Shown piece after piece: positions 27,797 to 53,671 of a stretch of DNA of 64,000 nucleotides (position 1 is its first letter; each line of letters begins with the position of its first letter). The translations under genes were made by a program, and so were the position numbers. The DNA is from Sulfitobacter alexandrii (GTDB lineage: Bacteria; Pseudomonadota; Alphaproteobacteria; Rhodobacterales; Rhodobacteraceae), in contig NZ_CP018081.1 of assembly GCF_001886735.1 (NCBI RefSeq), forward strand, positions 248,001 to 312,000, written 5' to 3'. The notes beneath the pieces are model-generated. The model did no database searches. It was not told the DNA's origin and saw nothing but the letters and a program-made list of their open reading frames with translations.

Positions 27797-29224
27797 ATGG
27801 CCGATCAAACCCCTCCCGACCTGCAGGACCGCCTCGATCAATTTAGCCAGCGCGGCAAATCCAAACGCCGGGGCAACAGCCTCGGGGTCGGCGCGCTCGC
27901 CGCCGCCCTCGCGCTCGGCGGCGCCGGGGTCGCGTATTTCCTCGCAACCGGGTTGCAGGAAGGTGACAGCGCGCTGGAGACCTCCGATGTCGAGACCTTT
28001 CAGGACCGCCGCCCCGGCACGGGCGGGCGGTTGGAGTTTCCGCCAGATGAGGCCGAACAACGGATCAATGACGCGCTGATCGCTGTCGAGGAGGCGCTCG
28101 ACGTGCCCGCGGCCCCTGCCCCGGAGGCAAGCGCCGAGGTGCTGGCCGAGATCGCCAAGCTGCGCGAGGCACTGGCCGCCAGCCAGGCCGCCCGCAACTC
28201 GGAAATCCAATCCGCCGTTGCTGACCTGCGCGAGGCCTTCGACGAACAGAAGGCCGCACTCGAATCCATGCTGGCAGCAAAGGAGGCCGAGCTTGCCAAC
28301 CTGCAACGCCAGACCGAGTCCCGTATCGCCGGGTTGCAAGCCATGCTCGATGCCGAGAGGGCGCAGCGGGAAGGGCTCGAGGCCGAGCTCGACCGCGAAG
28401 GGCTGATCGCTGACCAGCGCCTGCTCGAGGAACGCCGCAGGCAGGAAGAGGAACAGCGTCAGCGCGAGGCCGAGCGGGTTGCAGAGGAGCTTCTGACCGC
28501 GCAGATCAAATCTCCCGCCGTGGTATATGCCGACGGGCCGCGCGGCAGCGCGAGTGGCGCGGCAGTGGCCGAACCTACCGCCGCTGCTGGTGCCGGGGGG
28601 CCGGTGCTCTCAGGCAATGAGGCGTTCCTGCAGAGCGCGCGACCGCTCGAGGTGCAGGAGGCCACTCGTCTCACCCATCCCGAGCGCACGCTGACCCAAG
28701 GGTCCGTCATCCAGGCCGCGCTTCAGACCGCCATCAACAGCGATCTGCCGGGCTCCGTTGTCGCGGTCGTCTCCGAGCCGGTTCCGGCGTTCTCCGGGGA
28801 CCGGGTTCTGATCCCCCGGGGTTCCCGCCTTTTTGGCCAATACCGCTCCGGCATCGAGATGCACCAGAAGCGCATCCTGATCCTCTGGACCCGCGTCCTG
28901 ACCCCGGACGGCACCTCGATGGAAATCGCCGCCGTCGGCGGGGACCAGCTCGGCCGGTCGGGCCTCACCGGCCTCGTCGATACCAAGTTCGCCGAGCGCT
29001 TTGGCGGGGCGGCTCTGATTTCCGTGATCGGGGCGGCGCCTGCGGTCGCGGCCGAGAGTGCCAACAATGAAACCACCAGCATTGTCCTGGGAGATGTCGG
29101 CAGCGACCTGCAGGACGCGGTCGGGTCGGTCATCGCCGATCAGGTCTCGATCGCGCCGACGATCTATGTCGATCAGGGGGCCTCGGTCACCGTGCTCGTG
29201 GATCGGGATGTGGTGATTTATTGA
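27797..29224 (+). CDS. virB10: VirB10 energy-transducing core protein
   Basis: This 475-residue protein has a short cytoplasmic tail and one membrane helix (LGVGALAAALALGGAGVAYFLA, about residues 32-53). A long coiled coil follows at about residues 110-235. The TrbI/VirB10 barrel domain comes after it, with LTQGSVIQAALQTAINSDLPG, RVLIPRGSRLFGQYRSGIE and GDQLGRSGLTGLVD. The coiled coil replaces the usual proline-rich periplasmic spacer. It overlaps virB11 by four bases. Confidence 0.93.
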   Translation: MADQTPPDLQDRLDQFSQRGKSKRRGNSLGVGALAAALALGGAGVAYFLATGLQEGDSALETSDVETFQDRRPGTGGRLEFPPDEAEQRINDALIAVEEALDVPAAPAPEASAEVLAEIAKLREALAASQAARNSEIQSAVADLREAFDEQKAALESMLAAKEAELANLQRQTESRIAGLQAMLDAERAQREGLEAELDREGLIADQRLLEERRRQEEEQRQREAERVAEELLTAQIKSPAVVYADGPRGSASGAAVAEPTAAAGAGGPVLSGNEAFLQSARPLEVQEATRLTHPERTLTQGSVIQAALQTAINSDLPGSVVAVVSEPVPAFSGDRVLIPRGSRLFGQYRSGIEMHQKRILILWTRVLTPDGTSMEIAAVGGDQLGRSGLTGLVDTKFAERFGGAALISVIGAAPAVAAESANNETTSIVLGDVGSDLQDAVGSVIADQVSIAPTIYVDQGASVTVLVDRDVVIY

Positions 29225-30222
29225 CCCGGACAGAAAGCCCAGCCTCCTATCTCGAGCGATATCTCGATCCGTTCCGCGACCTTCTGCGGCGCGACGACGT
29301 GGTCGAGATCGCGGTCAACCCGGACGGCAAGGTCTGGCTCGAGGTCGCGGGCGACGCCACGATGCGCCACGAAGGCCAGACCGTGGATCGCACCACCGCC
29401 CTCAACATGGCCCAGACCATCGTCGGCGACGCCAAGGCCCGCGTCTCTGAAAAGAACCCGCTCGTGTCCGGCAAGGTGGAATATGCGGGCCGCCCCCTCC
29501 GGGTCCAGGTCGCCGTGCCGCCCGCCATCGACCGCGGTGCCTCGATCACCATCCGACTTTTCGCCTCGGGCAGCGTCCGGGACTACGCCCCGGCCTATCT
29601 CTTCGGCAAGGCCGTCTCGCTCGATGCGCTCCGCGCCGAGAAGATGAAAAACATCGCCAGTCTCGCAGAAGAAAACCTCGAGGTCGCGCTGCAGACCCTC
29701 GTCGAGGCGCGGCTCAACGTCCTGATCAGCGGCGGCACCTCGACCGGCAAGACCACTTTCGCCCGCCATCTTCTGACCCATATCACTGAGCACGAACGCC
29801 TGATCACCATCGAGGACGCCTTCGAGCTATTCCCCGCCCAACCGAACACCGTCGCCCTCCTGGCCGACCGCGGAACCGGTTCGCAACGCAGCGCCAATGC
29901 CCTCCTTCAGGCCTCCCTCCGCATGCGCCCCGACCGGATCATCGTCGGTGAGTTGCGCGGGGCCGAGGCCCTGACCTATCTCGAGGCCATCAACACTGGC
30001 CATGGTGGGTCGGTCTCCACGATCCACGCCGAAACCGCGGAACTCGCCATCGACCGGCTGGCGATCATGGTGCTGCAGGCCGGCACACCGCTGACCTTCG
30101 CTGAAGTGCGGGAGTACATCCGGAAATCCATTGATGTGATCGTGCAGCTGGGGCGGGCCGAGGGCAAACGGGGGATCACTGAGTTCTATCTGCCTGGAAG
30201 CAGAAACCAGCCGCCGCCTTGA
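29221..30222 (+). CDS. virB11: VirB11 hexameric ATPase
   Basis: This 333-residue traffic ATPase has Walker A SGGTSTGKTTFARH near residue 170. The Asp box ITIEDAFELF, Walker B RIIVGELRGAEALTYLEA and the His box INTGHGGSVSTIHAE follow. The start is TTG, overlapping the virB10 stop. It ends the virB operon; the next gene lies in the opposite direction and belongs to the cargo island. Confidence 0.95.
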   Translation: MTRTESPASYLERYLDPFRDLLRRDDVVEIAVNPDGKVWLEVAGDATMRHEGQTVDRTTALNMAQTIVGDAKARVSEKNPLVSGKVEYAGRPLRVQVAVPPAIDRGASITIRLFASGSVRDYAPAYLFGKAVSLDALRAEKMKNIASLAEENLEVALQTLVEARLNVLISGGTSTGKTTFARHLLTHITEHERLITIEDAFELFPAQPNTVALLADRGTGSQRSANALLQASLRMRPDRIIVGELRGAEALTYLEAINTGHGGSVSTIHAETAELAIDRLAIMVLQAGTPLTFAEVREYIRKSIDVIVQLGRAEGKRGITEFYLPGSRNQPPP

Positions 30223-30286: not shown

Positions 30287-31348
30287 TTAGGCGGTTTCGG
30301 CATCTTTCCCCGTCGAAAACGGAACAATCTTGCATAGCGAACACAGGTTCACTCGCGGCTCAGCCTTACCCTCAGTCAATCTTTCAACTGAAGTTTCCTT
30401 GCCGGCCATCAGGTCTGAAACCGCCAACATGAAAGCATCCTTGTCGGCTGCTTGCATCGCTCCACGGGCACCTTCAAATCCGCAGTTCAACGCCGCCGCC
30501 GCTTGCCCTCTTCGAAGTGCGTCAGAGATTAACCTCGGCGTCCAGGATACAGGGTTCATACTGCCCTGGTTGCCAAGTTCACTCAACAGTATTGCGGTAC
30601 ACCAATCACCTGAACCTGCCGCATCAAGAAAATATGGCGCCTCGAAAGCATCAAGTTCGAACCAATCCCAGCCAAGGCGAAATTCCAAGCCTCGCGGTCC
30701 TAAGGTTTGAATGATGAGATTTGGCCCAGTGAGATCACGGATTTCATTGATGTGACCGAGCCTATCTTCGGCAAACTTTAGGACGTGACAAACATCTATT
30801 GCCTTTTGAAATTGGCTCTCATCCCCTATGGAAGACGGCTCAAAGAGGACTAGACCTCCACTTTCGCGTACCCAAGAGGCAAGCTTCAGGGCGCTCGGAG
30901 ACACGCGGTCAAAGAAAAAGATATCGGGAACGCAATCACTATCCAATACCGGCTGGATTTGTCGGATCGTCGTTGATCTGAACCTTGGAAGCCAACCGCC
31001 GCAATCCGGGCAAGTCAACACATAACGATGTGACCTGTGGCCTTCAGCATCTACCTTGAATTTCTGAACGACAACTGGCGTGGAGACCGACTGTTCTTGC
31101 CATACAAAGTCAGTTTTAACGCCGTCGAACTGAAGGTCGTGAACAACGAAGTCTCCCGGTTCATCACATCCAAGTCGCGCCACAGGAAACGAATCCCAAC
31201 CCAGCCAGCTCAACAAGGCCATAACATTCCCGCACGAACCGCCTGCCGAAGCAAAGGTCGCCTCAAGGCCCTCCACAACATCCATGGCCACGAAGCCTGT
31301 TCCCATGGCCCGTAACCCGATGGCTTCCTGTTTCTTGTCGTCGATCAT
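30287..31348 (-). CDS. PfkB-family sugar or nucleoside kinase (island gene 5)
   Basis: This 353-residue ribokinase-type kinase has the N-terminal substrate motif GGSCGN (residues 36-41). The ATP and catalytic motif DAAGSGDW lies at 242-249, with the catalytic Asp at 248. It phosphorylates a sugar hydroxyl in known relatives; the substrate here is unknown. Two CxxC pairs are odd for the family: CPDC at 113-116 and CSLC near 336-339. They may bind a metal together. I chose the ATG at 31348, which overlaps the previous stop as ATGA; a GTG at 31372 is possible. It is the last gene of the five-gene operon. Confidence 0.85.
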   Translation of the reverse strand: MIDDKKQEAIGLRAMGTGFVAMDVVEGLEATFASAGGSCGNVMALLSWLGWDSFPVARLGCDEPGDFVVHDLQFDGVKTDFVWQEQSVSTPVVVQKFKVDAEGHRSHRYVLTCPDCGGWLPRFRSTTIRQIQPVLDSDCVPDIFFFDRVSPSALKLASWVRESGGLVLFEPSSIGDESQFQKAIDVCHVLKFAEDRLGHINEIRDLTGPNLIIQTLGPRGLEFRLGWDWFELDAFEAPYFLDAAGSGDWCTAILLSELGNQGSMNPVSWTPRLISDALRRGQAAAALNCGFEGARGAMQAADKDAFMLAVSDLMAGKETSVERLTEGKAEPRVNLCSLCKIVPFSTGKDAETA

Positions 31349-32454
31349 CGTTCCCAGTCCCCACGAAGCCACATAGATGAGAGCTGGTACTCCGTGTCTG
31401 ATTCTATGACAGGATCGGAGTAGTCTGCTGTTTCTACATACAAAACACCCACTGACATACGATCTCCTGCGATAGCCCCGTACCTATGGTCATAGCACGC
31501 CAACAAGGCGCCGACCGATAAAAGCTTGGAAGATAATGGTGACACGAAAGCCTTGCAACCGCCAAGTTCGCTCAGTGCCCGCCGATACCGGTCCATGGCG
31601 GCAAATATCTGCTTGTAAGCTTCGAACGGATTATACTCTGATGCTCTTAGAATGTTGCCTGGTTCGACTTGGAACTCTTCGAACAAGAGTTGCCGATGCT
31701 CCCGAATGATCTCGTCTCCGCGTCGTGGTTCTCTAGTTGGAAAAGGGATCACGGGGCAAATCTCGTCAGGGTTCAATTTGTCTCGGATGCGCGACAGCCT
31801 AATTCCTTGCTGTTCGCCGAGCACCGGAAACCATACCCGAGGAATCTGATCGGTCGATTCACTATCAAGCTGCCCGCCAAAACCGATCACGTTGGTGACG
31901 TCATCACGGAGCGTACCTCGCGCGGCGCCGATGTCAGCCGACACGCTCTCGGCGGTCGTCACATGGAGATTTACGTCCGGTCCATCTACACTCATTTTGT
32001 CAAGCTCGTGGAGCAGAGATGCGACCGCCGTTAGCGCCACCATCCTGGGCATAGCGCTAATGTCCACCACAACGTCAGTATACACGCCCAAAGAACCCGC
32101 GGCGCGCAATGCCTGCCGCACGTTCCTAGAAGTGGCGTTACCTTTCCCGGAGCGTCCGAGTGAGACCTCAATCTCGCGAATCTTCGATGCGCCGACCAAA
32201 GCTTCGAGTTTTTTAACGTTTTCGAGAGTGAGCTGGATTCTTAATTCGCTGTCTTGGAAGCCGTTGTCGAAGGCAAGCAACCAAACATCGACTTCCCCAC
32301 CAAACTCCACGATCTTATCCAAAACAGATAGAGCCCTCGGGTCGTACCCACGCCCAAGCACAAACAAGAAACGCTTGGAAGGTTCATTTGCGTATTTCTG
32401 CCAAAAGGCATCAAAATCCTCACCCTGACGGAAGATATAGGGGTCCCAACGCAT
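31345..32454 (-). CDS. Unrecognised Rossmann-like protein (island gene 4)
   Basis: This 369-residue protein belongs to no family I can name. The first half looks like an alpha/beta Rossmann-type fold. Strand 1 with a glycine loop is RFLFVLGRGYDPRAL, then EVDVWLLAFDNG, and a later strand with a conserved-looking loop is DVVVDISAMPRMV. The C-terminal half is mostly helical, with GGCKAFVSPLSSKLLSVGALL. The layout recalls ligand-sensing CARF-like or nucleotide-binding domains, but that is only an impression. I chose the ATG at 32454 with GCGAGG upstream over a TTG at 32475. It overlaps the kinase gene by four bases. Confidence 0.75.
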   Translation of the reverse strand: MRWDPYIFRQGEDFDAFWQKYANEPSKRFLFVLGRGYDPRALSVLDKIVEFGGEVDVWLLAFDNGFQDSELRIQLTLENVKKLEALVGASKIREIEVSLGRSGKGNATSRNVRQALRAAGSLGVYTDVVVDISAMPRMVALTAVASLLHELDKMSVDGPDVNLHVTTAESVSADIGAARGTLRDDVTNVIGFGGQLDSESTDQIPRVWFPVLGEQQGIRLSRIRDKLNPDEICPVIPFPTREPRRGDEIIREHRQLLFEEFQVEPGNILRASEYNPFEAYKQIFAAMDRYRRALSELGGCKAFVSPLSSKLLSVGALLACYDHRYGAIAGDRMSVGVLYVETADYSDPVIESDTEYQLSSMWLRGDWER

Positions 32455-32467
32455 GATAGTGACCTCG

Positions 32468-34372
32468 CTAGACAAGCCTCGGCTCCCTGTCCGACTGCTC
32501 CCCTATGTCGCCGAGCTCCATCCAGCGATGAAGTGTTCCAAGCGATTGCTCACGCCAGCCCCCATATCCAAGCGGCAGGCCAAATTTCACACATAGCAAT
32601 CTGTTCAGATAGAAAACCATGTAGGATTTTCCCTTCGCCTTCCGATCCAAATGCGGGGTAATCAAGTTATGCGCAACTAGGGAAGTGACGACATTTCGCA
32701 ATTGAAGAAGATGCTTGATCTTTTTTTCATCTTCATTTGCCAGCGTATTTCGATCCTGCATGGATATCGCAAACCCGGTGACTCCCGGCATATAGGGAGC
32801 GGTTGGGCGAAAGGTCTGATCACGGCAGTATTTGCCAAGAGCTTCCAGAAATCTCTTTGCATCGTAGCCCTGGGGCAGGCGCCGGACCAAGCCTTCCCAT
32901 CTTAACTCGGCGACTTCACGAATTATCGCATCCTGTCGTTCTGCTGACAACGAACGCGGAATGCTCCTTGGACCGGTGATCTTTGCAGAAATCTCTTCGA
33001 ACAACGCTCCAGCTACCTCAAGATACTGATCGATGTTCGAACTCGCCACTGCCGCTAGCGTGTCTTTTCCAAAGTACAGCGGAGTTTCCATTTCGGTTCT
33101 TAGGAAATGCTCAGCGGCCCTCGAAACGGCCTTTTCCTTTTCATCGAGTTCATCAGCCGGCAGAACGTCGAATGCGAATGACGCCTGGCTCCGCCTTAGG
33201 TCCCGCTCGATCAGGATCTCTGTGGACCGCCACTTAATAGCTGATGAAATCGCATCTCTGCGATCTTCTCGAGCGGCAGAAATCCATTCTTCATAGCGGC
33301 TATCACCGGCGGTCTTCTCGACAAGTCGCGTCTCGATCTCGGATGACTTCTCGCCGTATCTATTCTCACCTTGCGCCAGCTCTTCCTCGTTTGCTACCAA
33401 AGGGAAGAACTCTCTCCCTTCAAAACCGTCCGCCTTGGATGCCCTGAGATTGGCAATTTGCTCGGCAAATCGCGTGAAACCAGATGACCGCTTTCCGGAC
33501 CACTGTGTTTCAAGCTGGATGACGGAGTCGTAATCGCGTTTCTCCAAGGCACCTTCGGTCAACAAGTCTTGGTGGCTCATCGCATCGAGGCGCTCGGCAA
33601 TCCAAATACCGCAGGGCTCCCGTGCATTGGTTACAAGGTTTATCAGACTTTTGCGTTGCGCATTGTCCAAGAATTGAAGTTCGTCGAAAAGGAGAATTCG
33701 TCGGGACCGAACCTCTCCGCGCCCATCGAACATTCTCGCCCGGGCAAACCACTTGAGACTGTCGAGCCTTGTATGGCCACCTTGGAGTGCATCTGGCTCC
33801 CCTAGATCATCCATCGTGTCATAAAAATTGCGTTCGATCTCAGAAGCCCATTCGAACAGCTCTGTTCCACTCGCGGATGCAGGCACAGTTGCTCCAGACT
33901 CTGGTTCCCAAGTGACTCGCAATGTTTTCAGATCATCCGGATATAGTCGTCCACTTTGATCAAGGAGTGATCGGAGCGTCGCGATGACGATTCTAGAATC
34001 CAGAAGCGATCTGAATAACCCATTGCCGCGATCGATCTGCGCCAAATCTTGATACTCTGTCGAGAACGAAATCATGGCACCAAGCAACTTGGCTCCGTTT
34101 TCATCTACGGCACCGAGATTACTCAAGACATCGAACGTTGGCTTGACCTGCTGATCTTCCCGCAACGACACAACGAGCTCGAGCGGGCGCGGCAGCATCA
34201 TTCGCAGCAAGGTTGTCTTTCCGCCCCCAGGAGCGCTTCGAAAGAAGACTAGTCCGGAAAACGGATCTTCTTTGTCGTCGACGACATCCAAAGCTCCAGG
34301 CCCGAACAGTCTGACGAACTGTTCATCACTCACCGAACGCTGGGATGCTCTTATGCGGAATGGGTTTCTCAC
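32468..34372 (-). CDS. P-loop ATPase (island gene 3)
   Basis: This 634-residue protein has an N-terminal P-loop ATPase domain. Walker A is RSAPGGGKTTLLRM near residue 50. Walker B is RRILLFDELQFLDNAQ near residue 225, followed by a sensor-like region AREPCGIWIAERLDAM. The C-terminal 300 residues are helical, with a possible winged-helix part (KKIKHLLQLRNVVTSLVAHNLI). The pattern fits AAA+/ORC- or STAND-like ATPases often seen in defence operons, but I cannot place it in a named family. It starts with GTG two bases after the PRTase stop codon. Confidence 0.82.
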   Translation of the reverse strand: MRNPFRIRASQRSVSDEQFVRLFGPGALDVVDDKEDPFSGLVFFRSAPGGGKTTLLRMMLPRPLELVVSLREDQQVKPTFDVLSNLGAVDENGAKLLGAMISFSTEYQDLAQIDRGNGLFRSLLDSRIVIATLRSLLDQSGRLYPDDLKTLRVTWEPESGATVPASASGTELFEWASEIERNFYDTMDDLGEPDALQGGHTRLDSLKWFARARMFDGRGEVRSRRILLFDELQFLDNAQRKSLINLVTNAREPCGIWIAERLDAMSHQDLLTEGALEKRDYDSVIQLETQWSGKRSSGFTRFAEQIANLRASKADGFEGREFFPLVANEEELAQGENRYGEKSSEIETRLVEKTAGDSRYEEWISAAREDRRDAISSAIKWRSTEILIERDLRRSQASFAFDVLPADELDEKEKAVSRAAEHFLRTEMETPLYFGKDTLAAVASSNIDQYLEVAGALFEEISAKITGPRSIPRSLSAERQDAIIREVAELRWEGLVRRLPQGYDAKRFLEALGKYCRDQTFRPTAPYMPGVTGFAISMQDRNTLANEDEKKIKHLLQLRNVVTSLVAHNLITPHLDRKAKGKSYMVFYLNRLLCVKFGLPLGYGGWREQSLGTLHRWMELGDIGEQSDREPRLV

Positions 34373-34374
34373 AG

Positions 34375-35496
34375 CTACTCAAACTTTCTATGGCGACTGA
34401 CACGAGGGAACAAACCGCGTACCCTGTGCACATCTTCTGCCCACAAAAGGAAGATGGAGTTGTTGGGTGTATTGTGTGCCAGAACTACCGGCAACTTACA
34501 CCCTGCATAACCGAAACGTTTGGACGTGCCACCAACCTTCGAATGTTCATCGTCTGCATCGGGGTCAAAGTAGCGGTCTTGGTTGGCAAGAGACAAAATT
34601 CCATCGTCCGTCGGCGGCACCAGCTTCACGCCGCAGTTGAGGCGATGAACAACCTTGAACTCGATTGATCCTTTCGAAAATGGCAGCTGTTCCAAACGCT
34701 GCTCGATGTGTTCTATCGCCTGATCAGCCGCGATGTAGATCACGACGAGCACCGAAACTCCGGATTGAGCCACGAGACTACCTAAAAGCTCATCGCTATC
34801 GAGTTCGCGGATAATTTTTGCAATTTTTCCGTCCCAGTCTCCGTTCTTTCCCTCTCGAAGGTAGCTGGTCCCACTCGCTGTAAAGTCATCCAGCAATACT
34901 ACATACTCGAACTTAGCTTGATCTTCCGGTACTTCCGCGCCAGAGATCGTTGAGAGATCCTTTTGTAACTTTTCCGTGAACCCTTTGGCCTTTGGCGAAG
35001 ACATATCATATGCGTGGAACACTTGCTCATGGGTGATGTCTTGTGGATGCGCCCTTCGAAACTGGTCAGTACGGGCACCGTCGCTCAATCCAAGAAACAG
35101 TGTCTTTCGTAATCTTGCGCGATATTCCTTGGATTTAACTATCGATTTTACCCGATGGGCTTCCAAAGCCGAATGGCTCTCCGCGGTATCAGCAATCAAC
35201 TTTGGGCGAACAAAGGTTGGAAAAGCCAACCCAACAAGACTGTTAATTTCCGCATTTGAAACAAATATTAACCGTTCCTTGACGAAGGAATAGGCAATAT
35301 CTCGTTCACCCTTGGTTTCAAACTGCTGCAACCACAGCGCTAGGCTCTCCAGAAAGCGGCGCCCAGGAGCGAACTGCTGATACTCGTCGTATTTGTAGGA
35401 CGCAAAGCTTTCCAGCAAAGCTCTTTCCTCTGCCTTCTCGGCATCGGACCACCCCATTATCTTGGTAAGAAGTGTTTCAGCGAGTTCTTTCTTCAA
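34375..35496 (-). CDS. Phosphoribosyltransferase-like protein (island gene 2)
   Basis: The 373-residue protein has a helical N-terminal part (residues 1-95) and a type I PRTase-like core. The PRPP-loop motif is YVVLLDDFTASGTS at 198-211. A C-terminal signature HNTPNNSIFLLW lies near residue 345. Both signatures recur in the retron effector at 45394-46653 (FVLVTDFIGSGDRV and FDHGMPNNAPSMFW). This links the two as one PRTase-like family that I associate with prokaryotic conflict systems. Its reaction is unknown; it could move a ribosyl phosphate onto, or cleave, a nucleotide. The start is TTG, overlapping the previous stop by four bases. Confidence 0.82.
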   Translation of the reverse strand: MKKELAETLLTKIMGWSDAEKAEERALLESFASYKYDEYQQFAPGRRFLESLALWLQQFETKGERDIAYSFVKERLIFVSNAEINSLVGLAFPTFVRPKLIADTAESHSALEAHRVKSIVKSKEYRARLRKTLFLGLSDGARTDQFRRAHPQDITHEQVFHAYDMSSPKAKGFTEKLQKDLSTISGAEVPEDQAKFEYVVLLDDFTASGTSYLREGKNGDWDGKIAKIIRELDSDELLGSLVAQSGVSVLVVIYIAADQAIEHIEQRLEQLPFSKGSIEFKVVHRLNCGVKLVPPTDDGILSLANQDRYFDPDADDEHSKVGGTSKRFGYAGCKLPVVLAHNTPNNSIFLLWAEDVHRVRGLFPRVSRHRKFE

Positions 35497-37415
35497 TTTG
35501 TCAGACCTCGGTCGGAGGGCTTAATCGCCATAGCCCAAGCCTCTTCAAGCTTTGCCAGCCTCTCAAGGTAGAAGACCGTCGCTTGTACACCACGGATACC
35601 TGCGGGAGCCAATGCCCAACCTGTTTTCGGATCTTCGCTCGCCCGATCGACACTCAGACCAAGTGGATGATCCAAAAGCTGAAAATCGTTCCCGACTGGA
35701 TCGGCGCGGTCACCAATGCGTAAGACCGCGCCACTGTCTATTTTTGCATAGTTGCACAGCTCTTCGACCAGCTTAAGCTTGCTTTGCCCCCCGATTAGGA
35801 CATCGACCGAGTGGCTCGAAATTACAACTTGCTTATCAAGTCCACCTAATCTCAACGCCTCACGAATTTCTGAGACCGCCCGAGATACGTCTCGTCTTCT
35901 CCGAAATTTTATTGAAATCTGTTTCGTGTTCGCTCGAATTTCGCAAGAAGACAGAAATGTACCCTTACGCAGTTCCTCGAGCATTGGATCAACCGCATCC
36001 AATTCGTCTAACAGGGGATCACGATCGTCGCTCAAAGAACTAATTACTGCGCCATTATAGTACCCCACAAGTACTCGCCCCCAGAGCTCTCGCTTTATGC
36101 TCGACCTTAGAGACACGCCCGCACTTGGTCCCCGACCCGTTGCAATACCTATGGGCAGCCCGCCTTCAAGGAGCCTATTCAGTTCTTCGGCTACCTTGGG
36201 CCGAAGGCCAACTTTGAACCGGTCGCGGTCATCAGAGAGCGTCCCGTCATAATCCATCACCAAACCCTGAATGGAAGCATCTCTGACAAAATTAATTGCG
36301 CTAGAATAATGCTCAAACCAAGTCTCCTTGTCTGCCCCTGAGAGATTAACTCCCTTCCGTGCGAGCGCAGCATTCAGGTTCAACTCCTTCTGAGATTCTG
36401 CAGGAAGCATCGGACCGATCCGATAGAGCCGCCTTCCGAATTCCGGCACTCCTGGCTTGGCGGGGTCTATTTTTGAGGCCTCGCCAGCTCCAAGGCTCAG
36501 ATGTAAACCTGCTACGATTCCTGCAATAGCCTGTAGGTGTCTGGGTCCGCGAAAATCTATTCTCAGTCGCGGAATTTCTCGCGGTAAAGCCTCAAGGGTC
36601 TTGGTTGCGAGCTGCTCCATTCCGTCGCCCACCAAACAAACGATACCCGTGGACGCCTTATGTTTATGCATCCAGAAATGTCTTCCGTGCCCAAAATTTC
36701 GCAAGTCCGCAGCATGTAGGTTCCCCAGACCAGCTTCAACGAAACGAGACTCAAGATCGACAGACGTTGCTCGCAAGGAGTTCGTGAACAATAGGCTAAC
36801 AGTCCGATTCAAGCACAGATCTTTTGCTTGACTGGCGATGTCCTCCGCGCTCCATCCGCAAATGATTTGGTGCATTAGTTCCTCAAGCGACGAAGGCAAC
36901 TCCTCGCTATCAAATCCCGACGCTTGGTACGCTCGCAAAATCAGGACGGAAGACGCAACCAAAGATGCGACTGCCAAGAAACCGTCTTTAAAGCTTTCAG
37001 ACTGAAAATCGACAATATCTGCGTACTGAAACCTTCGCCCCAAAGCGTGAAGTGGGCTCTCATCTTTTAAGACCAGCGCGGAAAGCGGCAAGAACTCCCG
37101 TTGAGCTGCGGCCTTGAAAGCCACACCAATATCTCGGTTTCGTCCACTTGCCGAAAAGCATGCAATACCGGCATTCGTAGTCGGGCCGGAAATGATTTCG
37201 AGCGGTGTGACAGCTTTGGCGGTTTCGCCTTCCATCAATTCATGCATCTGAGCCGCGAAGCTAGCCACAGAGTAAGATCCTCCAGAGCCAACCATCATCA
37301 TGGGGCTCTCTCGCCAACCGTCCACGACTCGACAGAGTTCGGAGATATCTGCCTTCATGGCTGACTGATACGCGTTCTCAGCGCTGCGTAGTTCCGCTCG
37401 GTATCTCTCAGACAC
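35493..37415 (-). CDS. SIS-SIS-HAD fusion protein (island gene 1)
   Basis: This protein of about 640 residues joins a GlmS-like double SIS region to a HAD phosphatase. SIS 1 has MMMVGSGGSYSVASF and FSASGRNRDIG (residues 40-95). SIS 2 includes ESRFVEAGLGNLHAADLR around residue 221. The HAD part has LVMDYDGTLSDDRDRF (Asp388 and Asp390), IGIATGRG, the YYNGAVI strand of a C2-type cap, a Lys in SKLKLVEEL, and IGDRADPVGNDFQLL. I prefer the GTG at 37415 (AGGCAGG upstream), because residues from the more distant TTG at 37562 look non-coding. It could isomerise or deaminate a phosphosugar and dephosphorylate it. Confidence 0.82.
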   Translation of the reverse strand: MSERYRAELRSAENAYQSAMKADISELCRVVDGWRESPMMMVGSGGSYSVASFAAQMHELMEGETAKAVTPLEIISGPTTNAGIACFSASGRNRDIGVAFKAAAQREFLPLSALVLKDESPLHALGRRFQYADIVDFQSESFKDGFLAVASLVASSVLILRAYQASGFDSEELPSSLEELMHQIICGWSAEDIASQAKDLCLNRTVSLLFTNSLRATSVDLESRFVEAGLGNLHAADLRNFGHGRHFWMHKHKASTGIVCLVGDGMEQLATKTLEALPREIPRLRIDFRGPRHLQAIAGIVAGLHLSLGAGEASKIDPAKPGVPEFGRRLYRIGPMLPAESQKELNLNAALARKGVNLSGADKETWFEHYSSAINFVRDASIQGLVMDYDGTLSDDRDRFKVGLRPKVAEELNRLLEGGLPIGIATGRGPSAGVSLRSSIKRELWGRVLVGYYNGAVISSLSDDRDPLLDELDAVDPMLEELRKGTFLSSCEIRANTKQISIKFRRRRDVSRAVSEIREALRLGGLDKQVVISSHSVDVLIGGQSKLKLVEELCNYAKIDSGAVLRIGDRADPVGNDFQLLDHPLGLSVDRASEDPKTGWALAPAGIRGVQATVFYLERLAKLEEAWAMAIKPSDRGLTN

Positions 37416-37677: not shown

Positions 37678-39600
37678 TTACCCTCCCAACAACTCCGCGA
37701 TGAAATCCTCCTGCCGATCGAGCGCCGCCTCCCATTCCTTCGGCAGCGCCGCTTCCCGCTCGAGCGTCTCGGGCACAGGTTGCCCGCGCCTGGCATCCAT
37801 CGTCCTCACGCTCATCGCGCGCGCTTCGCGGCGCTGTGATCGATCCCGCACAGGCGCGCGTTCGACTGGTTTCACCAGCTCGTCAGAACTTGCCTCGTCA
37901 CCACCGTCGCTACCCCAAGGCCCCACACCCTGCACGCTCGGCGGATAGGGGAAGGGCTTGCCCTCCTGTCGTGCCAACATGTCCTTGAAGAACGGATCGT
38001 CGTAATACTTGATCCGGCTTGCCTTGATCGGATGCTGCGGCGAGGCGAGGATGATGACCTCGTCGGGGTCCATCAGGCGCGCTTCGGTCTCGGAAAGCAG
38101 CGGCCGTTCCTCCAGCCGCGCTGATGTTGACGTCGCGCCAAGGAAGCCCTTGTTCCGGCCATACATCCGGGTCACGGCCTCGCGGGTCGTGCTGCCTACT
38201 GCGGCGGATACCTCCTTCACGGTCCGCTGATCGCGGGGAGTGATATAGAGCTTAAGCCCTGCCCCGTTTTCGAGACTTTCGCGGCCCTCGGGCCCGTAGA
38301 TCCGGTCGAGCGAAGCCAGCGACTGCGCGATCATCGCGACGCGGCCGCCATAGCTTGCCAGCGAATGGATCGCGCGCTCGAGATAGGGCATGGCCCCCAT
38401 CTGCTGGAATTCGTCGATCATCATCATGACAGGCCAGGGCTCATCCGGGCCGGGCTCGTTCAGCCGGATCGACGCGATGAGATCGGCGAACATCAGACGC
38501 AGGAGCGGGGCGAGGGTGGCGATGTGATCCTCGGAGACCGCGATGTAGAGCGACTGTGAGGTCTTGCGGAAGGTCGAGAAATCGAAATCACTCGCCTCTG
38601 TGGCCGAGCGCACCGCCGGGTTGTCCCATTGCTTGAGGCCGGCCGTCATCAGCGCCTGAATGTTCGAGGTCAGCAGGCGCGATGAGGCCGAGGCCGCGTT
38701 GGTCCAGAGCTCGCGCAGGATGTCTTCCTCGGCCTCGTCTGCATAGGTCTTGTATTGCGCGTTCTTGTACTCGCCCCCGGCGACGATCTTGTTCACCTCG
38801 CCAAGGTTCGGTGTGCCGCGCTGGATCGCCAGCAGGCAGGCCGCGACAAAGATCGACTTGCCGGCCTCGGAGAAGGTGTCGAGCGTCTTGTTGTCCTTGT
38901 CGAGGAAGAGGTCGGCCAGGATCGAGACCTCGGTGAAGCGCTGCGCGAATGTCGGGGCCTTCGCGATCCGCGCAAGCGGGTTGTAGCGATGCGTGGCATT
39001 GGCCCAGTCGAAGGGGCTGAAGCGATAGACCTCGTCTCCGTTCAACGCCCGGAGCCGTGCAGTCTTCTCGAAGTTCTCGCCCTTCACGTCGAGCACCACG
39101 ACCGAGCCCGCGAAGCTCAGAAGGTTCGGGATCACGAAGCCGACGCCCTTACCCGCGCGGGTGGGCGCCACCATCATCACATGCGGGATCGTGGTCGAGG
39201 ATATGAACTCGGCTTTCAAACGCGGCGCGCCAAGCTTGCCGCAGACGAAGCCCTTGCCCGGCGCCTGCAACATGTCGTTCTTCTTCAACTCCGCCTTTGT
39301 CTGCCAATGGGCCGAACCATAGTCGTCTCTCTCCTTTTTCCAGGTCCAGGCCAGCGCCAGGGCGCCAAGCCCGATGGCTCCGAAGCCGACGGCGCCAAAC
39401 CCCACCTTAAAGGCCTCAGGATGTGCCGCGCGTGTTGCGGCGCTGGCCTTCCAGAGCGCCAACATGTCGAAACTGCCGAAGCCGGTTTTCAGGGCCAGGG
39501 TCAGGTAGAAGGCGGCAACGATGGTGCCGATGACAGCGCCGCAGATCACGCCGAAGAGGAGCGCGGCCCAGAGGGGAAGTGTCTTGGTCATAGTGGTCAT
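37678..39600 (-). CDS. virD4: VirD4/TraG-type coupling protein
   Basis: This 640-residue coupling ATPase brings the relaxase-DNA complex to the secretion channel. Two N-terminal membrane segments lie at about residues 9-36 and 66-86. Walker A VAPTRAGKGVGF is at 144-155 and VVVLDVKGENFEKTAR follows. Walker B-like MMMIDEFQQMG lies in the middle. It starts five bases after the relaxase stop. It is convergent with virB11, separated from it by the oppositely coded island. Confidence 0.95.
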   Translation of the reverse strand: MTTMTKTLPLWAALLFGVICGAVIGTIVAAFYLTLALKTGFGSFDMLALWKASAATRAAHPEAFKVGFGAVGFGAIGLGALALAWTWKKERDDYGSAHWQTKAELKKNDMLQAPGKGFVCGKLGAPRLKAEFISSTTIPHVMMVAPTRAGKGVGFVIPNLLSFAGSVVVLDVKGENFEKTARLRALNGDEVYRFSPFDWANATHRYNPLARIAKAPTFAQRFTEVSILADLFLDKDNKTLDTFSEAGKSIFVAACLLAIQRGTPNLGEVNKIVAGGEYKNAQYKTYADEAEEDILRELWTNAASASSRLLTSNIQALMTAGLKQWDNPAVRSATEASDFDFSTFRKTSQSLYIAVSEDHIATLAPLLRLMFADLIASIRLNEPGPDEPWPVMMMIDEFQQMGAMPYLERAIHSLASYGGRVAMIAQSLASLDRIYGPEGRESLENGAGLKLYITPRDQRTVKEVSAAVGSTTREAVTRMYGRNKGFLGATSTSARLEERPLLSETEARLMDPDEVIILASPQHPIKASRIKYYDDPFFKDMLARQEGKPFPYPPSVQGVGPWGSDGGDEASSDELVKPVERAPVRDRSQRREARAMSVRTMDARRGQPVPETLEREAALPKEWEAALDRQEDFIAELLGG

Positions 39601-45393: not shown

Positions 45394-46653
45394 GTGGCTA
45401 CAAGATCGACCATCATGCCGCCGTTGGTGAAAGCATGGGTGGATCAATTCGAAGAAGCGGACCGGGCGGATGCTGCGATCCTCGCGTCCCTCATCCGGCT
45501 TGTCCCTGGTGATGCTTTTCGCCGCGATTTGACGCGGGTCCTTGAAGACCGCCTGAGGATCGGTCCCAACCCCGTGGCGCTTTACAACGAAACAGAGCGT
45601 AAGAAATGGAAAGGGCAACCCAACCGTTTGTTTCCCGAGACGTCCCGCGCGAGTAAAATGCAAAAAGGGAAGAAGACTGTGCGCGCATATGGCCGCGTCG
45701 GACCGCCGCTGGTGCCTCGTCAGCGACAGGTCGCCGAAGAAATAGGCAGTGAAGGGGTTGTCGCCAACGTCCTGACCCAGTTGCACAAGCGCCATCGAAA
45801 GTCGATCCTTCTCAACCCTGGGGCCGACATCATTCGCGAGAAGCGCGTGCGCCGGTTCGTTCTGGTAACGGACTTCATCGGAAGCGGAGATCGCGTCATC
45901 GACTATCTCAATGCCGCATGGAGGCTGCGGACAGTGCGCAGCTGGTGGTCGAGGCGCAGTCATTCCGGCCTTTGTTTCGAAGTGGTGGCCTACGCAGGGA
46001 CAGAAGCTGGGGTCGATCGCGTAAAGGATCACGCCTCATCGCCCACCGTCAGCTTGGTGACACGATGCCCAACAATTCAATCGGTCTTTCCCCGAGGAAA
46101 AGTCAGGCGGATGGAAGAGCTGTGTCGTCAATATGCGCCACCAGGGTCCAAACCCCTGGGCTATGGCGAAGTCGGGGCGCTTTTGGCGTTTGATCACGGC
46201 ATGCCGAACAATGCACCTTCGATGTTCTGGAAGGATGCAAGAAGATGGTCGGCGCTGGTACCGGAGCGATCATCCAGTACAGCTGGTTCCCCCTACCAAG
46301 AACCGCACACGCCAAAGAAAGAAAGAGCGCGTATTGAAGCGTCTGCCAAGGCGTCGGACACCGGGGCAATTCTGCGCCCGACGAGCTTGGAAACGATCAT
46401 ACTGTCTGCACTGCGCCGATCTCCCCGTCATTCCGAAGCGATATCGGGTCGTCTCGGCATGAACATCGATGATGTGTCCGAAATCCTTGACCGCTTGAAA
46501 GGTTGGGGTTGGATAAACGCGTCGCATCAACTGACCGAACGAGGGCGGATGGTTGCGTCACGACTGATCCGCCAGGACCGCAAGAGCCCCCTTCCCCAAG
46601 GCGACGACACGATGTACTTTCCGAATGCGTTGAGAGCGCCACGCGATGTCTAG
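45394..46653 (+). CDS. Retron accessory effector: PRTase-like plus winged helix
   Basis: The 419-residue protein has a PRTase-like core with the loop FVLVTDFIGSGDRV (155-168). A later signature is YGEVGALLAFDHGMPNNAPSMFW. The C-terminal winged helix is at about 350-405 (ILSALRRSPRHSEAISGRLG, then LDRLKGWGWINASHQLTERG). It is followed by a structured RNA region and a retron reverse transcriptase. PRTase/winged-helix proteins define one retron class, which I recall as type III. In retrons the effector is held inactive until phage activity is sensed. The same PRTase signatures occur in the island gene at 34375-35496. Confidence 0.82.
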   Translation: MATRSTIMPPLVKAWVDQFEEADRADAAILASLIRLVPGDAFRRDLTRVLEDRLRIGPNPVALYNETERKKWKGQPNRLFPETSRASKMQKGKKTVRAYGRVGPPLVPRQRQVAEEIGSEGVVANVLTQLHKRHRKSILLNPGADIIREKRVRRFVLVTDFIGSGDRVIDYLNAAWRLRTVRSWWSRRSHSGLCFEVVAYAGTEAGVDRVKDHASSPTVSLVTRCPTIQSVFPRGKVRRMEELCRQYAPPGSKPLGYGEVGALLAFDHGMPNNAPSMFWKDARRWSALVPERSSSTAGSPYQEPHTPKKERARIEASAKASDTGAILRPTSLETIILSALRRSPRHSEAISGRLGMNIDDVSEILDRLKGWGWINASHQLTERGRMVASRLIRQDRKSPLPQGDDTMYFPNALRAPRDV

Positions 46654-46659
46654 TGGTTG

Positions 46660-46845
46660 CCGGGGTAACGACCGGCACCGTTGGTGTCACGTCCTGCCCG
46701 CAGGAGGTGATGCCTGGGCCGTCGATTGCGATGGGCTCACGGTCAAGCTTTCGCTTGATGCTCAACTTGATCGAACCGCACGACCTTGCGGTCGCCGCAG
46801 CGGTAGGCTGACTTGCGATCCGATCAAGCTCACCCTGAAGGGTGG
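46660..46845 (+). ncRNA. Candidate retron msr-msd RNA
   Basis: The 199-base gap between effector and reverse transcriptase is unusually rich in hairpins. They are TCCTGC/GCAGGA (46692-46705), TCAAGC-TTTC-GCTTGA (46743-46758) and ACCGCA/TGCGGT (46775-46792). The last is enclosed by CTTGATCG/CGATCAAG (46766-46828). CACCCT/AGGGTG sits just before the reverse transcriptase gene. This fits the template-primer RNA of a retron. I could not find a convincing long a1/a2 pairing or the branching G, so the exact ends are guesses. Confidence 0.6.
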
Positions 46846-46852
46846 ATAGTAG

Positions 46853-48031
46853 ATGCGAACGTGGAACTCTCAACGCTACTTCGCCGAGGGCCTTGCGGCA
46901 GGAGTGGATGAATCCATCCTCAAAAATGCAGTTGCGACAGCTGAACACACGTTGCGGCAGGCAAATCCAGGCCCGCCGATCCTGACCCTTGGCCATCTGG
47001 GGCATTTGGCGGGCGTTGATGTTGGTATTTTGAAAGCATATGCCTCAAGGCGGGATGCGGACCCTTATCGGGAGTTCTCGATCCGCAAGCGCCCGATCCC
47101 GGGCCAACCTCCGCGCTATCGGACAATCGCCGTGCCTGAGCCGCCCTTGCTGAGAGTCCAGACTTGGATCGCGTCCGAAGTCCTGCGCCATGCACCCTGC
47201 CACTCGGCGAGCACGGCGTTTGCACCAGGGTCTCGGTTGGCCCAGGCCGCGGCGCGCCACTGCCGCGCAGTTTGGATGGTCAAGATTGATCTGCGGAACT
47301 TCTTCGAATCGCTGACCGAAATCGACGTGCATCGGGTGTTTTTGGAGCGGGGCTACCAGCCGCTGGTCGCGTTTGAGCTTGCGCGCTTGTGCACCCGTCT
47401 CCGCGACAAACATCGCAACGATACTGCTGTCTTGCCTCAGCGACGAACGCCCAGATTTCGGCACTCATCCTTGACATCGCTTTATCCACGAGACCTGTTT
47501 GGCGTTTTGCCGCAAGGCGCACCAACCAGTCCAATGTTGGCCAATCTCGCAGTGCGCGACCTAGATGAAAGACTGACTGCTATCGCGAAGACCTACGGCG
47601 TCCGATACTCGCGCTATGCAGACGATCTCACCTTTTCAACGACACGAAAGTCGTTTGGAAGATCCCGCGCACATGATCTGATAGGGCGAGTGTATGAGAT
47701 CCTGGCTGCTCGAGGACTGGCGCCGAACCAATCCAAGACGACGATTGTTTCTCCGGGAGCACGGAAAGTCGTGCTCGGCCTTTTGGTGGACGGAGACACG
47801 CCGAAGCTGACACGCGATTTCCGCTCGCGGCTTCGAAAGCACCTGTATCACATAAGCGCTCCCGATCAGGGGCCGGTTCAACATGCAGCGCGGCGCGGAT
47901 TCGCCTCCGTTGAAGGCCTCCGCCAACATCTGTTGGGTCTGATCGCGTTCGCCGGTCAGATCGATCCAGTCTATGCGGCGAAATGTCGGGCGATTTTAGA
48001 CTCGTCAGATTGGTCGCAGACAAGGAGGTGA
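46853..48031 (+). CDS. Retron reverse transcriptase
   Basis: This 392-residue reverse transcriptase of the retron/group II-like clade has palm Asp146 in MVKIDLRNFFES. LPQGAPTSPMLANL is at 219-232, the catalytic RYSRYADDLTFS at 251-262, and the thumb-edge KVVLGLLVDG follows. PxxxYRTIAVPEPPLLRVQ is the usual retron N-terminal region. It has no fused effector or nuclease domain. It makes multicopy single-stranded DNA from the msr-msd RNA. The ATG has GGGTGGA upstream. Confidence 0.93.
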   Translation: MRTWNSQRYFAEGLAAGVDESILKNAVATAEHTLRQANPGPPILTLGHLGHLAGVDVGILKAYASRRDADPYREFSIRKRPIPGQPPRYRTIAVPEPPLLRVQTWIASEVLRHAPCHSASTAFAPGSRLAQAAARHCRAVWMVKIDLRNFFESLTEIDVHRVFLERGYQPLVAFELARLCTRLRDKHRNDTAVLPQRRTPRFRHSSLTSLYPRDLFGVLPQGAPTSPMLANLAVRDLDERLTAIAKTYGVRYSRYADDLTFSTTRKSFGRSRAHDLIGRVYEILAARGLAPNQSKTTIVSPGARKVVLGLLVDGDTPKLTRDFRSRLRKHLYHISAPDQGPVQHAARRGFASVEGLRQHLLGLIAFAGQIDPVYAAKCRAILDSSDWSQTRR

Positions 48032-48383: not shown

Positions 48384-49322
48384 TCAGTGGCTGACACAGC
48401 TTTGGCGCTTCCAGATTGCATCGGCTCGTGCCAGAAGCGCTTGACGATCTGCATCGGCACCGAGCTCGGAGATGGCCTGACGGGCAGCGTCTAGGGCCTG
48501 CGCAGACGTCTTTTTGGGCGACGTCGCCCTGGCAGATCGGTCAACGGGACTGCTTTCCTGCCGACGTCTTCGCGGAAGTCGCATATCGAGGTTCATCGAC
48601 AGCTTGCGCACCTTCTCAATCAAACGTCTGCGCTGAGGAAAGGCGCGTCGGAGATCCCAGAATGCTTGTTCATTTCCGCGCAGCAAGATGGCCACTCCCA
48701 ATAATGGACGGGCTGAGCAGACATCGACAGCTGCGAGTGCTATTGACCGCTCCAGTTGACACCGCGACGTGAGTGGCACGCTGTATACCAACTCAAGTAC
48801 TTGTAAGAGGCACAGCGTATGGCTGATCCGCTGCATGTGCCTCAGATCGGCGGCGGCAACCGCCGTCTTCAGCAATGCCGCGCCCCGAGCGGCGCGGACA
48901 CGTAGCCTGTTTGATAGACCATCGGCCGGATGCCTCGCCACAAGAGGTCGACCACAGTTTTCGCAAGTCAGCGACCAGGCGAAGCGCCAGTGGCGCAGGA
49001 CCAGTCCCGAGGTTTGTTTCGAGCAGTTTGCGCAACTTTGGAAGTCATCGCTAGATACGCATTGAGCGGGATGATGCGTCGTGTCCGGGAGGGTCATGGC
49101 CGCGATCTCATCCCGGGTCTGCTGAACCGCCGGACATAGCCGAGCCCAGTTCACATGCCCAAGGTCACCCGCATGCTCCGGCACCCTGCCCTGCCCCAAA
49201 CCGAGATAGCCGCAAAGCTCTTCGACGGAACAATGATTGGCCCGGGCCAACCGCCCGATCCAGCTCGAGAGAAGCTCGTCGGATACCGGTGGCGGTCGAC
49301 GCGGCAATGGGTTCACGGTCAC
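48384..49322 (-). CDS. tniQ: TniQ target-site protein (element 2)
   Basis: This 312-residue protein has an N-terminal TniQ domain (PVSDELLSSWIGRLARANHC, then VEELCGYLGLG). A zinc-ribbon-like CANC...CENCG follows in SCANCSKQTSG and LTCENCGRPLVA. I chose the GTG at 49322 because it overlaps the tniB stop as GTGA; the longer frame runs inside tniB. It would pick the target site together with TniB. Confidence 0.87.
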   Translation of the reverse strand: MTVNPLPRRPPPVSDELLSSWIGRLARANHCSVEELCGYLGLGQGRVPEHAGDLGHVNWARLCPAVQQTRDEIAAMTLPDTTHHPAQCVSSDDFQSCANCSKQTSGLVLRHWRFAWSLTCENCGRPLVARHPADGLSNRLRVRAARGAALLKTAVAAADLRHMQRISHTLCLLQVLELVYSVPLTSRCQLERSIALAAVDVCSARPLLGVAILLRGNEQAFWDLRRAFPQRRRLIEKVRKLSMNLDMRLPRRRRQESSPVDRSARATSPKKTSAQALDAARQAISELGADADRQALLARADAIWKRQSCVSH

Positions 49323-50188
49323 CCGAACTCCGCGATGGGTTGGCGCGGAATGCTCCAAGCATGCTTCGCCCATACCGGCTGCCAGGCCTGAACGGCCTCA
49401 TCGGTGATCCGCTCCTCACCCGTCTCGATCGCATCGATGGCCAAGGACTTGATCATGATGAACACGCGCGAGGTCACACCGCCCGTCACTTTCAGGATTG
49501 TCCGAAGCGACGCAACCGTGAGGCCCGACCGCTGCTCAAGTGCCATCGCGGCAATCAGCGTTTGGATGAGCCGAGAGAACTCCACGTCGTCCTCCCAGAG
49601 CGGCAGGTAGTGTTCGTCCAGGCGACGGGCCAGTTGGTCGTCACCGCGGACGGCCTCGAGCGCTTCGTTGACACCGAAAACGACAAGCGAGGCACAGAGA
49701 TCGTTGGCCAAGAACCGCAGCATGTTCAGGAACCGGCGTTGCTCCCGGTAACTACCGGCAAGCAGATTGTGCACCTCGTCGATCATCAGCATCTTCAGGT
49801 CCATATCCCGAAGATGACTGAGCGCGCGGACCTCAAGTTCGGACACGGTATGCCGCCCCCACATCGGCGCCCCGATCGTCGAAAGGATGTGCTGGTAGAA
49901 GCGTCGCTCGTCCGGCGCTGGCGGCGCCTGAACCAGCAGGATGGGGGTCTTCGTGATGCCCAGTTCTGCGTTGTACTGCGTCGGATACTTGCTGGCCATG
50001 CGCTTGGCGATCATCGTCTTGCCAATACCGGAACTGCCATAGACCATCAGGCCAGGCATCCGGCTCTGCTGCGGCATTTCCATCAGGGACGTCAATCGGT
50101 TGAGAACAATCGTGGCACGGTCGAATGCGATCCAATGATCGCTGCGGATGCGGTCAATTCTTTCTTCTGGGGTCATCAAACTCTTCAA
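49319..50188 (-). CDS. tniB: TniB AAA+ ATPase (element 2)
   Basis: This 289-residue AAA+ ATPase has Walker A MVYGSSGIGKTMIAKR near residue 50 and Walker B KMLMIDEVHNLLAGS near 130. It belongs to the same family as the protein at 15791-16672 but is clearly diverged. It overlaps tniA by 35 bases and tniQ by four, so translation of all three is coupled. Confidence 0.92.
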   Translation of the reverse strand: MKSLMTPEERIDRIRSDHWIAFDRATIVLNRLTSLMEMPQQSRMPGLMVYGSSGIGKTMIAKRMASKYPTQYNAELGITKTPILLVQAPPAPDERRFYQHILSTIGAPMWGRHTVSELEVRALSHLRDMDLKMLMIDEVHNLLAGSYREQRRFLNMLRFLANDLCASLVVFGVNEALEAVRGDDQLARRLDEHYLPLWEDDVEFSRLIQTLIAAMALEQRSGLTVASLRTILKVTGGVTSRVFIMIKSLAIDAIETGEERITDEAVQAWQPVWAKHAWSIPRQPIAEFG

Positions 50189-53074: not shown

Positions 53075-53671
53075 ATGATCACGTCAAAAATCAAGCAACG
53101 CATCATTGGGAAAGGCCGAGGCGCTATCTTCGCGCCATCGGATTTCCTCGATATCGGATCGCGCGCGAGCGTGGATCAGGCGCTGTCGCGCCTTGCGGAT
53201 CAGGGTGTGATCCGGCGGCTGACGCGTGGGCTCTACGATTATCCGAAACATAGCTCCCGTTTCGGTCCCTTGGCACCCTCTGCTGACGACATCGCACGCG
53301 CCGTGGCCCGGAAGGACAACCAGGTTCTACTGCCTTCGCCCGCCATGGCGGCGAACCAGTTAGGTCTGTCCACCCAGGTCCCGTCCAATCCGACCTACAT
53401 GACCGACGGACCCACACGAACCAAGAAGATCGGACGACAGGTTATCCAGTTCCGAAACGCCTCTCCGAAGACATTGGTCGGCGCTGGGTCAAAAACAGGC
53501 ACGGTGTTTCAGGCGCTCCGCTATGTCGGCAAAGATCGCATCGACGACCAGGTGATCGGCAAGATCGCCCGCTCGCTGGATGCCAAGGACCGTGCGCAGC
53601 TTGCAAAGCAAAGCCGACACGTTCCGGCCTGGATGCATCCTGTCGTGCAGCAAATCGTGGCACACGCCTGA
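53075..53671 (+). CDS. DUF6088/AbiEi-like antitoxin
   Basis: This 198-residue protein has an N-terminal winged helix (IGKGRGAIFAPSDFLDIGSR, then VDQALSRLADQGVIRRLTRG). The AbiEi-type C-terminal region with GLYDYPKHS and VFQALRYVGKD follows. It is encoded two bases before the AbiEii toxin gene. Its role would be antitoxin and autorepressor acting on the dyad just upstream. Confidence 0.87.
   Translation: MITSKIKQRIIGKGRGAIFAPSDFLDIGSRASVDQALSRLADQGVIRRLTRGLYDYPKHSSRFGPLAPSADDIARAVARKDNQVLLPSPAMAANQLGLSTQVPSNPTYMTDGPTRTKKIGRQVIQFRNASPKTLVGAGSKTGTVFQALRYVGKDRIDDQVIGKIARSLDAKDRAQLAKQSRHVPAWMHPVVQQIVAHA

Follow-up and report, generated by a model that had tools for sequence, protein, structure and literature searches.

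Why should enzymes of sugar-phosphate chemistry, a phosphoribosyltransferase (PRTase) and a P-loop ATPase be packed into a single block between two transfer genes? The question is raised by five genes in a 64-kb stretch of Sulfitobacter alexandrii DNA, hereafter the window; all coordinates are positions in this stretch, and L and G numbers denote fetched loci and genomes, respectively. The five genes make up a single, dedicated system that recurs elsewhere. Tentatively, and at somewhat less than an even chance, we read it as a mobile two-module anti-phage or anti-plasmid immune (conflict) system, in which a CARF protein and the ATPase would gate a PRTase effector, with a pair of sugar enzymes serving it.

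All five genes lie on the minus strand. The first encodes a fusion (SIS-HAD; 35493..37415) of a double SIS domain of the GlmS isomerase/NagB-II type with a HAD-IIB phosphatase. It is followed by a PRTase-CE phosphoribosyltransferase, a candidate effector (34375..35496; PF24390, PADLOC PRTase_III-A); an ORC/CDC6-like P-loop ATPase with Walker A and B motifs, a candidate switch (32468..34372; PF24389); a tandem CARF protein, a candidate ligand sensor (31345..32475; predicted fold, PADLOC CARF6); and a fructokinase-like sugar kinase of the PfkB family (30287..31372, alternative start 31345; PF00294, profile match 5ey7). The SIS-HAD open reading frame (ORF) stays open as far as a TTG at 37562. A purine-rich stretch precedes the GTG at 37415, which is also where relatives begin.

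A first-pass annotation of the window had described five leftward, tightly packed genes, AT-richer than their virB neighbours and placed as one block between virB11 and virD4, and this description held throughout. The junctions comprise three overlaps and one 2-base gap, and the GC content of the block, about 0.50-0.54, is below that of the virB flank (0.64-0.69) and of the virD4/relaxase flank (0.63-0.67). The block sits at the point where rightward virB11 (29221..30222, plus strand; T2SSE, 2.7e-33) and leftward virD4 (37678..39600, minus strand; T4SS-DNA_transf, 2.4e-87) converge, and besides these two, profiles identify VirB8, VirB9 (CagX), VirB10 (TrbI) and a relaxase among the type IV secretion system (T4SS) neighbours.

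The five genes recur together

Scanning genomes with the CARF alignment gave 82 confirmed loci, of which the best 80 were kept, and profile searches found all five families in 72 of these 80. The genes are thus neither rarely associated nor always confined to a known biosynthetic cluster, either of which would have spoken against the single dedicated system proposed by the first-pass annotation. Six of the other eight loci are cut by contig ends (L015, L020, L035, L040, L047 and L083), and the remaining two look like remnants: in L026 the CARF matches from residue 98 onward only and the other four families were not seen, while L066 (a Nitrosopumilus bin, 9123-12166), read from the letters, has a broken-up CARF, an open PfkB and an adjoining transposase-like ORF, and is likely a remnant. 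The order SISHAD-PRT-ORC-CARF-PfkB is found in 56 of the 72 complete loci, SISHAD-PfkB-PRT-ORC-CARF in 12 and PRT-ORC-CARF-SISHAD-PfkB in three; one locus has a divergent form. A chance operon beside virB was considered as well and rejected on the same 72 of 80 loci.

The SIS-HAD alignment was used for a second genome sampling, which avoids the bias of CARF-based fetching. It matched 2 of 295 genomes of the family, 3 of 385 of the class and 6 of 398 of the phylum, the window's own genome included each time. Among the eight other genomes, G333, G434, G744, G885 and G888 carry all five genes and G368 and G883 have the match on contigs that are too short, so that five of the six uncut genomes hold the whole set. 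G434 may be the same genome as L024. All six plasmid loci that were opened have the five genes; 17 plasmid records match CARF and 17 match SIS-HAD, with 16 in common and the two matches at most about 5 kb apart, and the two records that are not shared are partial matches covering 24% and 35% of the query. In IMG/VR, L089 (of which L118 is the same contig) and L090 hold all five genes, and L119 holds four, being cut before SIS-HAD.

Two co-inherited modules

Within the system, the genes fall into two co-inherited modules, a PRTase-ATPase-CARF triad and a SIS-HAD-PfkB pair. Protein distances were compared over 75 loci (71 genome, 4 plasmid); loci with any gene below 80% profile coverage were left out, and L003 and L005 were dropped because of their two triads each. 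The distances correlate at r 0.93-0.97 among PRTase, ATPase and CARF and at r 0.94 between SIS-HAD and PfkB, versus r 0.61-0.69 between the modules; the maximum of 200 permutations was 0.124. The pair therefore co-evolves, although its two genes usually stand at opposite ends of the block.

L003 (2846-16583) contains two triads and a single SIS-HAD/PfkB pair; L005 (3-10125) contains one full triad, the ATPase and CARF of another, at which the stretch begins, and one pair. Two extra genes recur beside the five. NADAR forms a cluster in 15 loci and accounts, by Pfam, for 13 of 134 flanking genes; in L004, in L005 and in 8 of the 12 loci with the order SISHAD-PfkB-PRT-ORC-CARF it separates PfkB from the triad, and in L003, L075, L084 and L086 it stands at the block edge. 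A helix-turn-helix gene, identified by position in L003-L005, forms a cluster in 13 loci.

The PRTase, ATPase and CARF proteins

The first-pass annotation had recognised the sugar enzymes, the PRTase and the ATPase, and these assignments stand; the protein that it left unplaced as 'Rossmann-like' is now recognised as a tandem CARF. Its AlphaFold model (pLDDT 94) has the CARF-type Rossmann fold, with Can1 as the top structural match; rows 1-22 of the VIA-align result are all CARF proteins (row 23 and rows 25-50 are non-CARF), and the PADLOC CARF6 model matches it too. The regulatory domains of NKCC1/NCC, which headed the Foldseek result with template-modelling scores of at most 0.28 in the first nine rows, were rejected because those 22 VIA-align rows are all CARF proteins. 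CARF proteins usually respond to cyclic oligonucleotides and are known as readers of Cas10-made cyclic oligoadenylates. Since the unplaced protein turned out to be a tandem CARF, the likely ligand sensor is this protein and not the ATPase, to which the first-pass annotation had given that role.

The ATPase is ORC/CDC6-like, matching PF24389 at 7.2e-29 (101.4 bits, cut-off 27); its Walker A K52 is kept in 65 of 66 aligned proteins, the remaining row being gapped there, and its Walker B D230 in 66 of 66. The PRTase matches PF24390 (PRTase-CE) at 4.9e-21 (76.2 bits, cut-off 27) and PADLOC PRTase_III-A at 3.4e-14, and D203, D204 and G209 of its DDF..[ST]G motif, which we take to be the loop that binds phosphoribosyl pyrophosphate (PRPP), are kept in 67 of 67 proteins of the family alignment. 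Sequence searches of the PDB with the three profiles returned no row for the PRTase, 14 weak rows for the ATPase, mainly Walker A stretches, and one weak row for CARF, with no useful relative for the latter two. PADLOC gave no match for the ATPase, PfkB or SIS-HAD, and none of the five proteins matched PHROGs.

The sugar kinase and the SIS-HAD fusion

PfkB matches PF00294 at 4.6e-9 (36.5 bits, cut-off 25.8) and the profile of fructokinase 5ey7 at 4e-20, and the catalytic D247 of its GxGD motif is present in 69 of 69 proteins. The family also keeps C38 (65 of 69), H106 (69 of 69) and some of a CPxC pair; together these may form a metal site, which would be unusual for PfkB proteins.

The predicted fold of SIS-HAD is a double SIS that resembles glucosamine-6-phosphate (GlcN6P) deaminase and GlmS isomerase, and E227 and H243 are invariant in the family alignment. 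An hhalign comparison of the SIS part with the genome's own GlmS was weak (27% probability) and ended at residue 229, before H243; the part of GlmS beyond this end is presumably the catalytic one. In the HAD part, D388, D390, T392, K546, D569, N576 and D577 are kept in 60 of 60 proteins and T426 of motif II is T in 54 and S in 6, so that, with our own assignment of residues to motifs, all four HAD-IIB motifs are present; the score against NCBIfam HAD-SF-IIB is 31 bits, below the cut-off of 41.8.

The PfkB kinase FrlD pairs with the SIS deglycase FrlB, and by fold and profile our pair combines the same PfkB and SIS chemistry, also seen for the latter in GlmS/NagB-II isomerases. The locus might be an ordinary metabolic or repair island, in which PfkB and SIS-HAD, like FrlD/FrlB, repair or use glycated or phosphoribosylated compounds while the triad regulates or supports them. 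We consider such an island rather unlikely. Unlike the Frl pair, the SIS domain here is fused to a HAD phosphatase and travels with a CARF/ORC/PRTase triad.

Relation to known systems

The PRTase is, by analogy, the best candidate effector, because the available text of PMC12548924 names PRTases as probable effectors of retrons, with a mode of action that is unknown, and one acts with DprA. The latter system, DprA-PRTase, is presented in the available text of PMC9122126 as an anti-phage system of P2-like phages that acts against T7 and lambda, with the PRTase as proposed effector; a figure legend of PMC13092281 also lists PRTase among validated defence systems. As far as the available portions of PMC12548924 and PMC9122126 go, they bear out the tie between PRTases and phage defence that the first-pass annotation had drawn. 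DprA-PRTase is likened to our system by description, not by homology: its partner is DprA, and CARF, ORC-like and sugar enzymes are not mentioned in the text available (PMC9122126).

Type III-A retrons, composed of a reverse transcriptase (RT), a non-coding RNA and a PRTase/winged-helix protein, resemble our system in that their PRTase is of PF24390 and PADLOC PRTase_III-A matches both. The five genes differ in having no winged-helix match and no match of any ORF to an RT model in the Pfam and PADLOC searches, and the window carries a separate III-A retron at 45394-48031. Reading 'III-A' in the PADLOC name as CRISPR III-A was rejected, since PRTase_III-A and RT_III-A together fit that retron.

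The type III CARF effectors (Can1, Can2, Csm6, Cad1, Chp) share with our protein the tandem CARF fold, as in Can1, and HAD phosphatases linked to CARF act in type III immunity according to the available part of PMC12715507; here, in contrast, CARF is a separate protein beside a PRTase, an ATPase and sugar enzymes, in a genome without a Cas10 match. For Ter, a conflict system, it has been proposed that a PRTase and a HAD protein produce a nucleoside-like signal, but no ter genes are among the five, and SIS, PfkB, CARF and ORC find no mention for Ter in the accessible part of that source (PMC7824862).

No description of the five-gene set was found in the literature searched, including the available parts of PMC13092281, PMC9503650, PMC7824862, PMC12715507 and PMC12839542, and it is possible that part or all of it has been described before. 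'Undescribed', as the first-pass annotation put it, holds only in part, since Pfam PF24389 and PF24390 and PADLOC CARF6 and PRTase_III-A already cover the ATPase, the PRTase and the CARF protein. The family names probably come from a CARF classification (Nucleic Acids Research, 2020) and a conflict-system paper (Journal of Bacteriology, 2020).

Spread and genomic neighbourhood

In a tree of the triad (71 rows), the system spans 11 bacterial phyla, which are interleaved, with 15 changes of phylum label versus a least possible 10; this was a quick tree (LG+G4, SH-aLRT only) with long-branch and letter-composition warnings. A Fimbriimonadaceae bin stands among myxobacteria, Chryseolinea beside Neptuniibacter and Aeromicrobium beside alphaproteobacteria, several of these foreign placements being bins that could be misassigned. 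Carriers without 'MAG' in the title include Terriglobus roseus (complete), Corallococcus, Chitinophaga, Olivibacter, Tautonia and Arthrobacter. Broad spread together with rarity (2 of 295 in the family) suggests the pattern of a mobile accessory system.

Some copies share the window's position. All five proteins of L009, a Mameliella contig, are identical to those of the window, the CARF protein of L027, a Roseobacter bin, is 96% identical, and both copies lie between virD4 and virB11. So does a divergent copy in L071 (Ruegeria, 1341-13651), whose virD4 and virB11 share 33% and 40% identity with their counterparts in the window and whose remaining transfer genes are arranged otherwise; in L069, virD4 lies upstream of the system. 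The divergent copy suggests that the slot is an insertion hotspot in such plasmids, and different lineages of the system may have reused it. These positions would also suit a plasmid-versus-plasmid device, linked to the conjugation machinery and serving fertility inhibition or exclusion. But only 7 of 90 loci match any of the window's six T4SS proteins and several copies are on contigs of 1.7-5.2 Mb, which makes this explanation highly improbable.

The copies in part sit in a mobile setting. The 134 flanking genes include four integrases, three Fic proteins and transposases, along with matches to GajB, AbiEi, type I methylase and RT models; they are what remained of 149 selected genes after 15, mainly near-copies, core fragments and long rows, were removed by hand. 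PADLOC models matched number 92 among these genes versus 23 among 130 control genes, a comparison that is suggestive, since one protein can match many models. The control genes came from 17 stretches of carrier genomes (20 were requested and three dropped as too short), and one stretch, L104, lies on a contig equal in size to that of carrier locus L044.

A possible mechanism and the source of the ligand

Under the immune reading, the triad would be the sensing arm and the arm of killing or dormancy. The CARF protein would bind a small nucleotide-type ligand, and the ATPase would be a switch driven by ATP that might in addition recognise foreign DNA. Together they would release the PRTase, which could then draw on PRPP and alter or use up its target, be it a nucleotide, a nucleic acid or a sugar. 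The other module would be a sugar-phosphate pathway, in which a ketose phosphate from PfkB undergoes isomerisation or ammonia exchange at the SIS domain before the fused HAD phosphatase strips the phosphate, so that, on balance, ATP is spent on converting a sugar. The product might be the acceptor for the PRTase or the system's own signal; alternatively, the module may remove sugar adducts made by the PRTase. NADAR, which we assume to be an N-glycosidase family, would fit such an undoing of the PRTase product.

Throughout the 11 phyla, a tandem CARF protein is firmly tied to a PRTase, an ORC-like ATPase and a sugar-phosphate pathway of the system's own. If the system is immune, either CARF reads a ligand from enzymes other than Cas10 and SMODS, or sugar-phosphate chemistry feeds a PRTase effector; in the latter case the target of that effector, an open question for retron PRTases too, could be found.

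The immune reading draws on the recurrence of the whole set, its co-inheritance in two modules, its wide but sparse spread, the T4SS, integrase, transposase and defence-model neighbours and the defence roles described for other PRTases. Several observations weigh against it. The window's own genome, rated 100% complete, gave no match to the Cas10 models TIGR02578 and PF22335, to SMODS PF18144 (other models of cGAS/DncV-like nucleotidyltransferases, CD-NTases, were not searched) or to mCpol PF18182. The PRTase found no match in phage records. In the uncut genome G1060, PfkB was not recognised within 20 kb, nor was it in the stretch read of the IMG/VR viral contig L091, which has the other four genes, so the kinase may be dispensable. 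The neighbourhood control counts matched models, not genes, and sugar kinases, isomerases and phosphatases are also ordinary metabolic enzymes.

The synthetase searches bear equally on the possibility that the system is a trans-acting accessory of type III CRISPR or of cyclic-oligonucleotide-based antiphage signalling (CBASS), whose CARF would respond to cyclic oligonucleotides that a Cas10 or CD-NTase encoded outside the system supplies. The tandem CARF fold is indeed closest to Can1, a type III effector. Moreover, in 50 carriers hand-picked from the 72 with all five genes (many of them drafts, which may miss genes), PF22335 matched in 15 at E <= 0.001, in nine over the cut-off and in four below 1e-13, and SMODS matched in 15 at E <= 0.001 and in 13 over the cut-off, including G001, the genome of the identical copy L009. 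PF22335 also matches in E. coli, so its weak matches are probably GGDEF domains. The own genome, however, yielded neither the Cas10 of a type III ancillary effector nor, by the model searched, the CD-NTase of CBASS, and in 31 of the 50 carriers, drafts among them, no match over the cut-off was seen for the Cas10 palm or for SMODS. These searches lower the standing of the type III or CBASS explanation, which we regard as very unlikely.

An internal signal would explain the CARF protein in those 31 carriers and in the own genome, where none of the synthetase models searched matched. In such a closed loop, PfkB and SIS-HAD would produce a sugar or amino sugar of an unusual kind, to which the PRTase would join phosphoribose from PRPP; CARF would read the product and the ATPase would respond, the private second messenger being sugar-based and not a cyclic oligonucleotide. 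The likeness of the pair to ketose-phosphate and amino-sugar enzymes is consistent with this, and PRTase-phosphatase pairs acting on amino sugars occur in aminoglycoside synthesis. On the other hand, we know of no CARF that binds a sugar signal, inheritance between the modules is looser than within them, and 19 of the 50 carriers show a match over the cut-off for the Cas10 palm or SMODS. We hold the loop doubtful but worth keeping in view, and think it unlikely that the system is a self-contained form of immune signalling with its own sugar-phosphoribose messenger, read by a tandem CARF that has departed from cyclic oligonucleotides.

Other loci of the window

The window belongs to a contig of 348,874 bases in a 4.69 Mb genome of six contigs. 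At 57558..61468 the minus strand encodes RepC and a ParA/RepA-like ATPase; the ORF that separates the two has no Pfam match, and the arrangement resembles that of a repABC replicon. From these genes and the VirB/VirD4 transfer genes we infer that the contig is a repABC plasmid.

The type III-A retron (45394..48031, plus strand) consists of a PRTase-CE protein with a C-terminal winged helix-turn-helix (PADLOC PRTase_III-A, 2.2e-112; PF24409) followed by the RT (46853..48031, plus strand; RT_III-A, 8.6e-168), and a PRiA4_ORF3 gene (44713-45315) immediately precedes it. An AbiEi/AbiEii toxin-antitoxin pair is encoded at 53075..54684 (plus strand), so this plasmid stretch carries several defence-type loci. 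A transposition module of TniQ, TniB and a Mu-type transposase, which we take to be Tn5053-like, occupies 48384..51782 on the minus strand.

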